Shown piece by piece: positions 36,272-42,006 of a stretch of 64,000 bases of DNA. The position numbers were made by a program, and so were the translations under genes. Source of the stretch: Candidatus Binataceae bacterium (GTDB lineage: Bacteria; Desulfobacterota; Binatia; Binatales; Binataceae); contig DATGHL010000004.1 of NCBI GenBank assembly GCA_035308025.1, positions 66,678 to 130,677 of the forward strand, read 5' to 3'. Positions within the stretch are counted from its first letter, which is position 1; each line of letters opens with the position of its first letter. The notes beneath the pieces are model-generated. The model did not search any database, was not told the origin of the DNA, and worked only from the letters and a program-made list of their open reading frames with translations.

Positions 36272-36829
36272 GTGGCGGAGCTGTTCGTCGCTCTGCTCCA
36301 TCATCCGGTGCTCGACCGCAACGGCCGCGTCGTCACCTCGGCGATCACCAGTCTCGACCTTCACGACATCGCGCGCGCCGCGCGGACCTATGGCGTGCGC
36401 GGCTTTTACGTCGTTCATCCGATCGTCGAACAGCGCGATTTCGCACTGCGCGTGCTCGATCACTGGCGGCTTGACTATGGGCGCCTATACGATTCGCGGC
36501 GGCGGGAAGCGCTCGATTTAGCCGAGATCGTCGAAACCCTCGACGATGCGATTGCCGCAGCCGAACGGATCGCGGGGACGCGGCCGCGGCTGGTTTACAC
36601 CTCGGCGCGAGTGGAAAACGGGATCAGTTTCGCGGAACTCCGCCGCGTCCGCGAAAGCGCCGCCGAGCCGCCCCTGATGCTGATGCTCGGGACCGGCTTC
36701 GGCCTCGCGCCGGCAATTCTCGAGCGCGCCGACCTCGTGCTCGCGCCGATCCATGGCCCGGGCTCGTACAATCATCTTTCGGTGCGCGCCGCCGCCGGCA
36801 TCATTCTCGACCGTCTCTGCGGAAGCTGA
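36272..36829 (+). CDS. Putative SAM-dependent RNA methyltransferase (TrmD-associated)
   Basis: A 185-residue protein of the small family of predicted RNA methylases (PF09936 type, from memory) found next to trmD in Thermotoga, Aquifex and delta-proteobacteria. Visible features are VALLHHPVLDRNGRVVTSAITSLDLHDIARAARTYGV at the N-terminus and a knot-like C-terminus (LMLMLGTGFGLAPAILERADLVLAPIHGPGSYNHLSVRAAAGIILDRL). The fold suggests a SPOUT enzyme; its RNA target is unknown. It starts with GTG. In many relatives rplS follows directly; here rplS is 4.8 kb away. Confidence 0.86.
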   Translation: MAELFVALLHHPVLDRNGRVVTSAITSLDLHDIARAARTYGVRGFYVVHPIVEQRDFALRVLDHWRLDYGRLYDSRRREALDLAEIVETLDDAIAAAERIAGTRPRLVYTSARVENGISFAELRRVRESAAEPPLMLMLGTGFGLAPAILERADLVLAPIHGPGSYNHLSVRAAAGIILDRLCGS

Positions 36830-36865
36830 ACCGCGCTCGAGCAAATTTATTGGCCGACCCTCCCG

Positions 36866-36893
36866 TTGACGCTGTCCTGAAAAAAGGTATAAA
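36866..36893 (+). promoter_or_regulatory. Sigma70-like promoter of the inserted accessory genes
   Basis: TTGACG and TATAAA are separated by 16 bases, one of the best matches to a housekeeping promoter in the window. It lies in the gap after the RNA methylase gene and would start transcription about seven bases downstream, near 36900, giving a leader of roughly 85 bases before the first gene. Confidence 0.6.
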
Positions 36894-36986
36894 GACCCGG
36901 TGTTTGGGCGCACAATCCGGCCTGCGACGATGTTGAAACAAGAATTGACACAAGATCGTAGCGTGCGGAAAGGTCAACCGGCCACG

Positions 36987-37508
36987 ATGCGAAGAGATCG
37001 ATCAGGATTGGGCATAGCCCTCGTTCTGGTAGGCGCTATCATCCTCGCAATGATTACTCCGACAGCCGCTCGCGCAAGCAGTGCCGGCGAAATCAAGGCG
37101 ATCCAGCTCAGCATCGCCGCCGACGCGGAAAAGCGCGATCTCGACGGCATCATGAGCCATTACCTGCCGGGCGATAAACTCTTCGTTTTCGACATGTATC
37201 CGCCCAGGGCCTATATCGGATGGGACGCGTTTCGCGGCGACTGGAAGAATTTCCTCGACGCGCTCAAAGGGCCGATAAGTTACAAGCTCGGCGAGCTGAC
37301 CGCCACCGCGGACGACCAGTTCGGTTATACGCACATGATTCAGTACATCCGCGGCACTACGCAGGAGGGCAAGCCGTTCGTACTGAACCTGCGCGAAACC
37401 GATGTCTATCGCAAAATCAACGGCACATGGATGATCGTTCACGTCCACGCCTCGGTGCCGGTTGATCTGAAGACCGAGCGCGGCGATTTTCTCGCGAAGT
37501 GGCGCTGA
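36987..37508 (+). CDS. Secreted NTF2-like (SnoaL/DUF4440-type) protein, paralogue 1
   Basis: A 173-residue protein with a signal peptide (LGIALVLVGAIILAMITPTAARAS) and one NTF2-like alpha+beta barrel. The family helix and strands are visible as EIKAIQLSIAADAEKRDLDGIMSHY, FVFDMYPPRAYIGWDAFRGDWKNFL and YRKINGTWMIVHVHASVPVD. It is closely similar to the gene at 39716, with shared runs such as LFVFD.YPPRAY.GW.AFR.DW. NTF2-like proteins serve as isomerases, hydratases or binding proteins. The start was set at the signal peptide Met; the open frame extends upstream. Confidence 0.78.
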   Translation: MRRDRSGLGIALVLVGAIILAMITPTAARASSAGEIKAIQLSIAADAEKRDLDGIMSHYLPGDKLFVFDMYPPRAYIGWDAFRGDWKNFLDALKGPISYKLGELTATADDQFGYTHMIQYIRGTTQEGKPFVLNLRETDVYRKINGTWMIVHVHASVPVDLKTERGDFLAKWR

Positions 37509-37566
37509 TGCGGCGCGCGTGTGACGTTCGCTTGCTCGCAGTAATTCCGAGGGTCGAAGAGGTTTG

Positions 37567-38358
37567 ATGGCATCGCAAGAATGGAAGCAGGAACTCGTTC
37601 GTATCGCCGGAATCGAGATGCCGGTGATCAAGGGCGGCAGCGGCGCACCACTTTTAGTGCTGCACGACGAACTTGGCTATGCCGGATGGCTGAACTGGCA
37701 ACGCGCCTTGGCCAAGGAGCGGACGCTGGTGATCCCCTTCGCGCCGGGATTCGGGCAGACTCCGCGGCTTGGATGGATCGAGAATGTACGCGATCTCGCC
37801 TGCTTCTACGCGCGCTTTCTGCGCGAACAGGGCCTCGAGCGCGCCGACGTCATCGGCTTCTCCTTCGGCGGGTGGGTCGCGGCCGAAATGATCGCGAACA
37901 ATCCGGCGCAGTTTCGCCGTTCGGTGTTGGTCGCGCCCGGCGGCATCAAACCCGCCGAAGGCGAAATCATGGATCTGTTCCAGGTGCCGGCCGACAAGTA
38001 CCTCAACGCGACCGTCCATAATCGCGCTGCAACGCCCGAGTTCGGTATCCTCTATGGTGGTGAGAGCACGCCGGAGCAATTCGAGGCCTGGGATGACGCG
38101 CGCGCCGAGTTCTCGCGCATCGCGTGGCAACCCTACTTCCATACGCCGAGCCTGCCTTATCTGCTCGAGAGCGCGGGCAAGGTCGAATCTTTAATCGTCT
38201 GGGGTCGCGACGATCGCGTGATTCCGCACGCCGCCATCGCCGCTTACCATCGCGCCTTGAGCGGGTCGAAACTCGCGATTCTGGATAACTGCGGCCATCG
38301 GCCCGAGATTGAGCAAACCGGCCAATTCGTCAGCACAGTCACAAATTTTCTGCGCTAG
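37567..38358 (+). CDS. Alpha/beta-fold hydrolase
   Basis: A 263-residue hydrolase with a complete predicted triad: Ser99 in the nucleophile elbow GFSFGG, Asp216 in VWGRDDRVIP and His244 in DNCGHRPEIEQ. There is no signal peptide, so it is cytoplasmic. The arrangement fits C-C bond, ester or lactone hydrolases. GAGG lies just before the ATG. It lies between a secreted NTF2-like gene and a flavin oxidoreductase gene on the same strand with short gaps, so the four probably form one operon. Confidence 0.86.
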   Translation: MASQEWKQELVRIAGIEMPVIKGGSGAPLLVLHDELGYAGWLNWQRALAKERTLVIPFAPGFGQTPRLGWIENVRDLACFYARFLREQGLERADVIGFSFGGWVAAEMIANNPAQFRRSVLVAPGGIKPAEGEIMDLFQVPADKYLNATVHNRAATPEFGILYGGESTPEQFEAWDDARAEFSRIAWQPYFHTPSLPYLLESAGKVESLIVWGRDDRVIPHAAIAAYHRALSGSKLAILDNCGHRPEIEQTGQFVSTVTNFLR

Positions 38359-38376
38359 ACAGCAGGAGCGATTCTC

Positions 38377-39711
38377 ATGCATTTCATGTGGTTCACCGAG
38401 CGCGCATATCATTACGATCCCGAAACCGAGCCCGAAAAGTATCGCGAGCTGGAGAATCAGATACTCCGCTTGCGCAGCTTTTACGGTACGCCGAATCGTT
38501 TCTTTGATCCCGAGCACGGGGCGAAGATTATCAATCAGTATCTCGACGAGAAGGTTTACACCGATCAGGAGTTGCTCAACTTCGACGGCGTCATGCTCAA
38601 CGAGCATCACGGCACGCCCTTCTGTCTGGGCGCCGTGATGGACGTCGAGGCGGCAGTGATCGCGGCCAAGACCAAGCGCATCCGGATTACGCTGCTCGGC
38701 AATCCGGTGGCGACAGTCGGGAACCCGCTGCGCCTGGCGGAGGAACTCGCGACCATCGACCTGATCTCCGGCGGCCGGCTGACCACCGGCTGGGTGCGCG
38801 GCGCCGGCAGCGAGCAGTTCGCCAACAACACCAATCCCGCCAAGAATCGCGAGCTGTTCGAGGAAGGCGTCGATTTTATCGAGAAGGCCTGGACGACGCC
38901 CGGGCCGTTCCGTTACGAGGGCAAGAATTTTCACTTCCGCCAGGTCAATCCGTGGGTCCTGCCGCTGCAGAAACCCCATCCGCCATTCTGGATTCCGGGG
39001 CTGATCAGTCCCGACACCGCGGAATGGTGCGCCAAGCGCCGCTATCCCTACGTCGCCCTCGCCACCAAACTCGAACCGACCATCGATCTCTTCGAGCTTT
39101 ACGGTAAGACCGCGGCGCGCGCGGGCTATCAGGCGGGGCCGGAGAATTTCGGTTATTTGCAGCCGGTCATGATCAACGACAGCCAGGAGCGCGCCGAGGA
39201 ACTGGGCAAGCGCTTGCTCTTCGGCGGCGCCTTTGCTCATTTCGCACGTCCGGAGTGGATGTTTCCGCCAGGCTACAACTCCAAGGCGGCGACCCGCCGC
39301 CTCGCGACTCTCGACGGTCCCAACACCTCCGGCAAGCCGATTTTCGCCGCGACCGGCGAGGAGACCGACGAGCAGATCGAAGCGATTAAGCGCAGTATCT
39401 ATGCCGGCTACCCCCAAGTCCTGAAGGATATGCAGATGATCGCCGGGACCCCTGACCACGTGATCCCCAAGCTCAAAAAAGTCATCGATGCGCTCCGGCC
39501 CGGAATCTTTTCGTTCTGGCTTGACGGCCCGGTCTCGGCCAAGGAACGCCGCCGCTGTCTCGAGCTGCTCAATCGCGACGTCATTCCGCCGCTCCGCCAG
39601 TTCGCCAAAGAACGCGGCTTGACCGATCCGTTCGAATGCCGGCCGGGCTCACGACCGCTGGCGGGCGCGGAACAGTATCAGCCGACCACCAACGCCGCGG
39701 CTTTAGCGTGA
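38377..39711 (+). CDS. LLM class flavin-dependent oxidoreductase
   Basis: A 444-residue luciferase-like TIM-barrel protein. LNEHHGTPFCLGAVMDVEAAVIAAKTKRIRITLLGNPVATVGNPLRLAEELATIDLISGGRLTTGWVRG is the typical flavin-barrel region. It has an insertion and longer C-terminus than the 330-residue members. These enzymes use FMNH2 or F420H2; the cofactor cannot be decided here. It lies 18 bases after the hydrolase gene and four bases before the second NTF2-like gene, which points to a shared pathway for oxidation and hydrolysis of a small organic compound. Confidence 0.88.
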   Translation: MHFMWFTERAYHYDPETEPEKYRELENQILRLRSFYGTPNRFFDPEHGAKIINQYLDEKVYTDQELLNFDGVMLNEHHGTPFCLGAVMDVEAAVIAAKTKRIRITLLGNPVATVGNPLRLAEELATIDLISGGRLTTGWVRGAGSEQFANNTNPAKNRELFEEGVDFIEKAWTTPGPFRYEGKNFHFRQVNPWVLPLQKPHPPFWIPGLISPDTAEWCAKRRYPYVALATKLEPTIDLFELYGKTAARAGYQAGPENFGYLQPVMINDSQERAEELGKRLLFGGAFAHFARPEWMFPPGYNSKAATRRLATLDGPNTSGKPIFAATGEETDEQIEAIKRSIYAGYPQVLKDMQMIAGTPDHVIPKLKKVIDALRPGIFSFWLDGPVSAKERRRCLELLNRDVIPPLRQFAKERGLTDPFECRPGSRPLAGAEQYQPTTNAAALA

Positions 39712-39715
39712 CAAA

Positions 39716-40231
39716 ATGACGCGCAGAAAAACTCGCGCGTTCAGCTTGGCGTTGAGTCTCGCGACGCTCCTCGGAATCGCGCGGCCGGCCGCGGCGCGCG
39801 CTGATGCGGCCGCAGAAATCCGCGCCGCCCAACAGAGTATCGCCACCGGCGCCGAGGCCCGCAATCTCGACTTGATCATGAGTAACTATCTGCACAGCAA
39901 CAAGTTGTTCGTCTTCGACGTCTATCCGCCGCGCGCCTATCTGGGCTGGAACGCATTCCGCAAGGACTGGAGCGATTTCCTCAACGGCTTAAAAGGGCCG
40001 ATTACCTACCAGATGGTGGATATGGATGTCGATACGGACGGCAAGCTCGGCTACGTCCACGTGATCGAGCATATCGCGGGCGCCAGCACTGCAGGGAAGC
40101 CGGTCGAGATCAATATGCGGATTACCGAGCTCTACCGCAAAATCAACGGCAAATGGCTAATCGAGCACGAGCACGCCTCGGTGCCGGTCGATATCAAGTC
40201 GGGCCAGGCGGATATTCTATCGAAACAGTAA
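39716..40231 (+). CDS. Secreted NTF2-like protein, paralogue 2
   Basis: A 171-residue protein with a signal peptide (FSLALSLATLLGIARPAAARA) and an NTF2-like domain very similar to the gene at 36987: IMSNYL, LFVFDVYPPRAYLGWNAFRKDW and YRKINGKWLIEHEHASVPVDIKS. The pair probably arose by duplication and now brackets the hydrolase and flavin oxidoreductase. Its start lies four bases after the oxidoreductase stop, so translation is likely coupled. Both proteins are predicted to be exported while the enzymes are cytoplasmic. Confidence 0.8.
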   Translation: MTRRKTRAFSLALSLATLLGIARPAAARADAAAEIRAAQQSIATGAEARNLDLIMSNYLHSNKLFVFDVYPPRAYLGWNAFRKDWSDFLNGLKGPITYQMVDMDVDTDGKLGYVHVIEHIAGASTAGKPVEINMRITELYRKINGKWLIEHEHASVPVDIKSGQADILSKQ

Positions 40232-40527
40232 GTCGTGTGATTACTGGAATAGCGTCGCGGGGCGGCGGAGACTGGGACGCGTGGCCGAGGTCGCCATTGA
40301 GACCGCGCGCTGGTAGTCACCCTGCGATCGAAACCCGAAATCTCTCCGCCCGACGGTCGCGCTTGCGAGGCGTGCATCGCGCGCGACGCGTCGCCCGTAC
40401 GATGGCGCTGAACGCCACCGTCTCTGCGGAGGCTGACGCCGACACCGTGTGAACCGGGTATTCTCGCGCTTCGACGGCTCCGTTAAGCTGGCAGCGCCCG
40501 CTTACACCGTAAACCAGGCGCACAGCT
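40232..40527. other. Intergenic stretch with a diverged copy of the dispersed repeat
   Basis: I see no convincing gene in these 296 bases. Near 40258-40290 the sequence GGGGCGGCGGAGACTGGGAC and what follows match the 38-base repeat described at 53181 with about five differences in 34 bases. The rest is GC-rich, without a terminator or promoter I would defend. Confidence 0.5.
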
Positions 40528-40770
40528 ATGAGACTCTTCTCGGACGTAATTATCTTTTTCGGCGCGATCCTGCTGACCCTCGGCAGCGATCTGGTCGTGG
40601 AAACCGCGGGACAGAACCTTGCGAGTATCGGCGGATTGCTCGGGGTGTTGGTCTCCCTCATCGGGGTGTCGCTGTTGACGGCAGGTCTGCTCAGCCATTC
40701 GCGGCTGACGCGGGAGGGCAGTGACGAGGAGGCCGCGGAGCGCGCGATGAAGGGCAATGGCCGGCGCTGA
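40528..40770 (+). CDS. Small membrane protein
   Basis: An 80-residue protein I do not recognise. It has two hydrophobic helices (VIIFFGAILLTLGSDLVV and ASIGGLLGVLVSLIGVSLLTAGLLS) and a charged C-terminal tail (REGSDEEAAERAMKGNGRR), so both ends are probably cytoplasmic. It precedes another small membrane protein by 24 bases. Confidence 0.6.
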   Translation: MRLFSDVIIFFGAILLTLGSDLVVETAGQNLASIGGLLGVLVSLIGVSLLTAGLLSHSRLTREGSDEEAAERAMKGNGRR

Positions 40771-40794
40771 GCGACAGAGCTGAGGCGCGCAAAG

Positions 40795-41121
40795 TTGCTT
40801 AGCGAAGAGCGCAATGGGCTGCGGAAAATCCGCCGCGCACGGAGCTCGATGCAGTTGCTGTTCGCTGCCTATCTCCCGCTATTATTGATCGCGACACGGC
40901 TGGCGCGGCCGCTATGGATAATTGTGGCTCTGTCGATCGTATGGGCGATTGCGATGCTTCGTTGCGCGACGCGGATCGCCTTCAGCCATTGTCCGCGCTG
41001 CGGCAAATACTTTCATTCGTCGAGCGACGCTCCCTCCTTCCGCAGTCTGCTGGTGCGATCATGCATGCACTGCGGCTTGCCACTGCGCGCCGAGCGGGTG
41101 ATCTACCCGAGCATGGAATGA
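40795..41121 (+). CDS. Membrane protein with a C-terminal zinc ribbon
   Basis: A 108-residue protein beginning at TTG. Two close hydrophobic helices (MQLLFAAYLPLLLIATRL and LWIIVALSIVWAIAMLRC) are followed by a four-Cys ribbon: CPRCGKYFH and CMHCGLPLR. Function unknown. Its stop overlaps the start of the next lipoprotein gene (ATGA), which supports it as a real gene. Confidence 0.62.
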   Translation: MLSEERNGLRKIRRARSSMQLLFAAYLPLLLIATRLARPLWIIVALSIVWAIAMLRCATRIAFSHCPRCGKYFHSSSDAPSFRSLLVRSCMHCGLPLRAERVIYPSME

Positions 41122-41555
41122 GTGCCCACGAGCAACGGCCGCAGGCCAACCTGCGACGAGCACTGACGATCACGCTGTTACTCGGCTTGTACGGCATGGT
41201 CGGATGCTTCGAATGGAGCGAGGACCCGCAGGGCCATTTGCATTCGGTGGGCCTGCCCGGGATTCCGGTGTGGCAGTCGCAGGCAACGCCCGCGCCGCTG
41301 AATCCAACCGACCTCGGTATGTCGGCGGACGAGGCGGCTAAAATGAGCGGTCCGATCCTGGTCGAGCCGCCGGACAGCACCTCGCGCATGTGGCGTTACC
41401 GCTATTACGCGAAGGGACAGAATCGCTGCGAAGTCGATCTGCAAAAGCTGCTTGAAGAGCGGGCTCAGCTAGGGATCGGCGGCGCCGACCCTTATTGCTC
41501 CGAACATCCGCCGGTGCCGAGCGCGAGCGTTAATCCCCTTCCTGCCGGACCCTGA
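41118..41555 (+). CDS. Predicted lipoprotein of unknown function
   Basis: A 145-residue protein. The N-terminus has a basic region, a hydrophobic core (ALTITLLLGLYGM) and a lipobox ending in Cys33 (GMVGC), so it should be lipidated. The mature part has a Pro-rich segment (QATPAPLNPTDLG) and ends in a Pro-rich tail, with two further cysteines. The ATGA overlap with the preceding gene decides the start, although the frame is open further upstream. No family recognised. Confidence 0.68.
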   Translation: MSAHEQRPQANLRRALTITLLLGLYGMVGCFEWSEDPQGHLHSVGLPGIPVWQSQATPAPLNPTDLGMSADEAAKMSGPILVEPPDSTSRMWRYRYYAKGQNRCEVDLQKLLEERAQLGIGGADPYCSEHPPVPSASVNPLPAGP

Positions 41556-41661: not shown

Positions 41662-42006
41662 ATGAACAGCATTATTGAAAAGATCGAGGAGCGCGCCCTG
41701 CGCAAGGATCTCCCCGCGTTTCGGGTGGGCGATACCCTACGCTTGCAGGTCAAAGTGGTCGAGGGGGAAAAAGAGCGGCTTCAGCTCTTTGAGGGCATCG
41801 TCATCAAGATGAACCGGGGCGGCAATCGGGCGGCCTTCACGGTGCGCAAGATCTCCTACGGCATCGGGGTTGAGCGCATCTTCCCACTGCACTCGCCGCG
41901 GATCGAGAAGATTCAGGTCCTGAGCCGCGGCAAGGTCCGGCGTGCGCGGTTGTACTATCTGCGTGGACTGTCAGGCAAGGCCGCCCGCGTCGAGACCTTG
42001 AGCTGA
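41662..42006 (+). CDS. rplS: 50S ribosomal protein L19
   Basis: A 114-residue L19 of normal length: [75 protein letters not shown]. It normally follows trmD directly. Here seven accessory genes lie between, so it presumably relies on a promoter in or near the 106-base gap before it or on read-through. Confidence 0.97.

Follow-up and report, generated by a model that had tools for sequence, protein, structure and literature searches.

The described systems that come closest to the locus reported here lie in SAR202, where, in the available parts of two reports (PMC5395668, PMC6946804), large expansions of FMNO (COG2141) paralogs go together with many CaiB/BaiF CoA-transferases and a predicted oxygenation of rings or chains. 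A type II Baeyer-Villiger monooxygenase (BVMO) followed by a lactonase or esterase, with CaiB paralogs, has been proposed there (PMC5395668). In the same parts of these reports, no passage pairs an alpha/beta hydrolase (ABH) with a luciferase-like flavin/F420 oxidoreductase (LLM), and the word hydrolase is absent from both main texts. The main text of the Binatota genome paper mentions neither luciferase, LLM, flavin nor F420.

We analyzed a 64,000-nucleotide stretch of DNA (the window) on contig C4 of a MAG (G000; 3.63 Mb, 57 contigs, 97% complete) that we take to belong to the family Binataceae of the uncultured phylum Binatota. Like the SAR202 system, its host has a large expansion of LLM paralogs, with 78 Bac_luciferase genes above the cut-off, and the window holds an ABH-LLM gene pair, which SAR202/Chloroflexota MAGs also carry. 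It differs in having a Binatota host and, as far as the available text goes, in a pair of SnoaL genes present only on the window side. A first look at relatives gave as many as 188 luciferase-like candidates, in G033.

Two known structures resemble individual products of the locus. The type II BVMO 3,6-diketocamphane 1,6-monooxygenase (4uwm/5aec) shares the LLM fold and ranks high in fold searches with the window LLM, whereas sequence search does not link the two and the activity of the window LLM is predicted. The Pseudomonas putida NTF2-like protein PP_4556 (3f7s), which has no function assigned, gives the best match to the window's SnoaL_3 (PF13474) family by fold as well as by sequence, whereas the SnoaL proteins of the window bear predicted signal peptides.

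The four-gene block between the methylase gene and rplS

Upstream of the block lies the cluster ffh-rpsP-khpA-rimM-trmD with a PF09936 methylase gene; rplS follows at 41662, leaving a gap of 4,832 bp between methylase and rplS. As the initial annotation had stated, the trmD-rplS order is interrupted by four codirectional genes, a description on which ORFs, Pfam domains, and gene order (SnoaL_3, ABH, LLM, and SnoaL_3, all on the plus strand) agree.

36810 to 36829, plus strand: direct repeat, left copy (20 nt), made up of the final 20 nt of the methylase gene with its stop codon
36830 to 40436, plus strand: putative inserted segment, 3,607 bp including one repeat copy, placed by the direct repeat and by the restored spacing of relatives
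36866 to 36893, plus strand: predicted sigma70-like promoter, TTGACG-16-TATAAA, a consensus match only
36987 to 37508, plus strand: SnoaA, SnoaL_3/NTF2-like protein with a predicted signal peptide (PF13474; AlphaFold2 pLDDT 86, best PDB match 3f7s)
37564 to 38358, plus strand: ABH, alpha/beta hydrolase (Abhydrolase_6; Ser100-Asp217-His245 invariant)
38377 to 39711, plus strand: LLM, luciferase-like flavin/F420 oxidoreductase (PF00296; fold match to RslO1 and 3,6-diketocamphane monooxygenase)
39716 to 40231, plus strand: SnoaD, second SnoaL_3 protein, predicted signal peptide (PF13474; hydrophobic N terminus with AxA)
40417 to 40436, plus strand: direct repeat, right copy (20 nt, 1 mismatch), from the repeat comparison

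The block is a putative metabolic operon with operon-like spacing (55, 18, and 4 nt by ORF coordinates). That it has its own sigma70-like promoter, as had been claimed, is likely: the candidate site at 36866 matches the consensus at 10 of 12 positions, and under a Markov model chance would place 0.19 such sites in 5.9 kb and ~0.001 in any one stretch of 130 bp. A stock promoter scan had no match at 36866 because the scanner requires T as the last −10 base. The start codon of SnoaA is most likely the ATG at 36987 rather than the GTG at 36900.

Pfam searches assigned the LLM to Bac_luciferase (PF00296, 5e-30), the ABH to Abhydrolase_6 (9e-16), and both SnoaA and SnoaD to SnoaL_3 (6e-14 and 1e-13, corresponding to 52.8 and 52.0 bits against a gathering cut-off of 22), and an NCBIfam profile search gave no subfamily above the cut-off for any of the genes. 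SnoaA and SnoaD are 53% identical, and each has an N-terminal hydrophobic stretch that closes with an AxA motif (read by eye), which bears out the description of two related exported-type proteins on the flanks. The AlphaFold2 model of SnoaA predicts a confident NTF2 fold with a low-confidence N-terminal region, and its closest fold match, 3f7s, agrees with the NTF2-like fold of SnoaL_3.

Distribution of the ABH-LLM pair and of the SnoaL genes

Of 79 LLM loci that were fetched independently, 54 have a codirectional ABH gene immediately upstream of the LLM gene, with a spacing of mostly 17 to 36 nt; 3 further loci of the 79 are cut at contig edges. Going by MAG labels, the pair occurs in Binatota, Chloroflexota including SAR202, Entotheonella, Myxococcota, and Gammaproteobacteria. 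The pair is the functional core of the block and is conserved across phyla, and since its surroundings vary between loci, it behaves as a portable module. Genes that read as family III CoA-transferases and belong to one gene cluster lie near 24 loci. The explanation that we prefer, and to which we give about an even chance, is that this portable pair performs an oxygenation followed by ester opening, that its operon was inserted where we find it, and that the exported SnoaL proteins were added to it.

In the LLM tree, the window gene is nested among ABH-carrying Binataceae LLMs (a set of 21 rows, support 98), and its clade contains f5 genes without an ABH together with L079, from a MAG labelled Gammaproteobacteria, with one. 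The closest LLM relatives, 74 to 78% identical and belonging to family f5, have no ABH within 10 kb or up to the ends of short contigs, which counts against the preferred explanation. Downstream of the ABH-less LLM genes of one f5 locus, a TGA-interrupted ORF (L023:11443-12255) reads UPVCHQT if the TGA is taken as Sec, and its sequence makes a GrdB/PrdB-like selenoprotein possible.

The initial annotation had treated the four genes as one system, to be given up if their homologues never occurred together elsewhere. Among the remaining 98 LLM loci, as among the remaining SnoaL loci, not one holds both a SnoaL and an ABH gene, and a conserved system is not supported for the quartet, although for the ABH-LLM pair such joint occurrence is what we found. 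Because SnoaL genes stand beside the ABH-LLM pair nowhere else, the four-gene layout is unique to G000 among the genomes searched.

We see the flanking exported SnoaL genes as a local, lineage-specific addition whose products, speculatively, would most likely bind or isomerize the hydrophobic substrate outside the cytoplasm. It is quite plausible, if a little short of an even bet, that they are instead passengers with an unrelated envelope role and that ABH-LLM alone is the functional unit, which would be compatible with the core of the preferred explanation. SnoaL homologues, which 26 of 41 Binataceae genomes carry, are mostly solo genes there, which, like the lack of SnoaL genes near the pair elsewhere, suits passengers; so does the finding that an LLM adjoins only 6 of 33 SnoaL loci, a rate near background, where LLMs make up 12 of 209 genes. 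The gap of just 4 nt between LLM and SnoaD argues the other way, as does a conserved, convergent LLM/LLM/SnoaL block, with a different LLM subfamily, that is kept in four genomes of three Binataceae genera (L164, L179, L215, and L217). With the LLM-SnoaL enrichment unclear, only this block counts. Beyond Binataceae, the SnoaL profile has strong matches only here and there, in G075 and G126.

Predicted reaction of the pair

Under the preferred explanation, the LLM would use reduced FMN or F420, the cofactor being supplied by a separate enzyme, to oxygenate a carbonyl substrate, probably alicyclic or long-chain, to an ester or lactone in a type II Baeyer-Villiger-like reaction, and the adjoining serine hydrolase ABH would then open that ester or lactone. 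This reaction, the hydrolysis of its product, and the substrate class are the assignments that we hold most likely. The fold matches include a type II BVMO, and the SAR202 proposal has a BVMO followed by an esterase or lactonase. The theme of small-molecule oxidation in the initial annotation gains support from the conserved pair, while the reaction itself is one that we infer. The LLM has the luciferase-like TIM-barrel fold of type II BVMOs (PF00296 and fold matches), and a fold search with its model placed RslO1 at the top, followed by the type II BVMO 3,6-diketocamphane monooxygenase in second place; since all LLM enzymes share one fold, this ranking does not discriminate, and the PDB sequence matches of the LLM do not include the diketocamphane monooxygenase, so that no close sequence relation to a characterized type II BVMO of known structure was found. 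In the ABH, the triad S100, D217, and H245 is invariant in 16 homologues, and the nucleophile elbow reads GxSxGG.

The main rival chemistry arises because the genome encodes the F420 ligase cofE, which would allow the LLM to act as an F420 reductase or dehydrogenase. The pair would then combine an F420H2-dependent reductase/dehydrogenase with a C-C bond hydrolase or a thioesterase that works on intermediates of the acyl-CoA or ring-cleavage type, a scheme that we consider rather unlikely. The resemblance of the ABH to HsaD/BphD C-C hydrolases and the CoA-transferase-like genes near the pair in relatives fit this scheme, and the best NCBIfam match of the LLM is an F420-dependent subfamily, but all its NCBIfam matches fall far below the cut-off and monooxygenases are its top fold matches.

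We think it improbable that the locus performs a two-compartment oxidation, in which the exported NTF2-like proteins would capture or preprocess a hydrophobic substrate for the cytoplasmic LLM and hydrolase, the pair having been placed recently inside a SnoaL tandem in Binataceae. The closest relative of SnoaD (78% identical, in G044) has no signal peptide, which weakens the idea of a periplasmic pair for binding or processing that the initial annotation had put forward.

Probable insertion at the methylase gene and the interval in relatives

In most relatives with both genes together, the methylase-rplS distance is ~30 to 950 bp. Comparison of the trmD-rplS interval across relatives delimits the extra DNA in the window to 3,607 bp (36830 to 40436), within which only the four genes are called. 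It is flanked by a direct repeat, ACCGTCTCTGCGGA[A/G]GCTGA, one copy forming the methylase 3′ end (36810 to 36829) and the other lying at 40417 to 40436; excising 36830 to 40436 leaves 91 bp between the methylase gene and an 80-amino-acid ORF, compared with 92 bp in L188. A search of the 3.63-Mb genome allowing up to 2 mismatches gave no third copy, so that the repeats flank this site only. No integrase or transposase gene is among the genes called in the segment, which thus lacks this mark of a self-mobile element such as a transposon or integrative element. These data suggest that the trmD-rplS cluster acquired 3.6 kb of DNA bearing a metabolic operon, with the methylase 3′ end as the insertion point. 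An assembly error caused by the 20-nt repeat is unlikely, because its two copies share no exact run longer than 14 nt.

The initial annotation had the cluster broken by about 4.8 kb; a repeat-bounded insertion is upheld, but only 3.6 kb is extra. Positions 40528 to 41555 of the window hold two membrane ORFs, one of 80 amino acids and one of 108 amino acids with a zinc ribbon, and a lipoprotein-like ORF that starts at 41118 and overlaps, none of them with a Pfam match. Orthologues of the first two (at 40528 and 40795) occupy the interval in genus g7, and this small-membrane-protein pair (40528 to 41121) is native to the cluster and common to relatives. No counterpart of the lipoprotein-like ORF was called in L186 to L188.

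The methylase-rplS junction is generally unstable across Binataceae: in genus g13 the interval spans 2.6 to 4.3 kb with beta-helix-like genes inside. The two genes are split between contigs in G001, G002, G005, and G019. On the rimM side, an opposite-strand ORF of one cluster adjoins trmD in genera g9 and g10 (L193:4808-5365, L194:1307-2023, and L198:1092-1694), a second interruption of the same gene cluster. Such instability, together with a control in which 6 of 2,861 random stretch pairs from the window equalled the repeat's score, would suit an ancestral operon lost or moved in relatives and a coincidental repeat, but we hold this very improbable given repeats exactly at both ends with no third genomic copy and the absence of the four genes there in every examined relative with contiguous methylase and rplS.

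The ABH-LLM pair probably serves the breakdown of stubborn organic molecules. The conserved pairing backs, at the genomic level, the idea put forward for deep-ocean SAR202 that large flavin-monooxygenase expansions act together with ester-opening enzymes; it extends that idea to Binatota and makes a defined two-enzyme assay possible.
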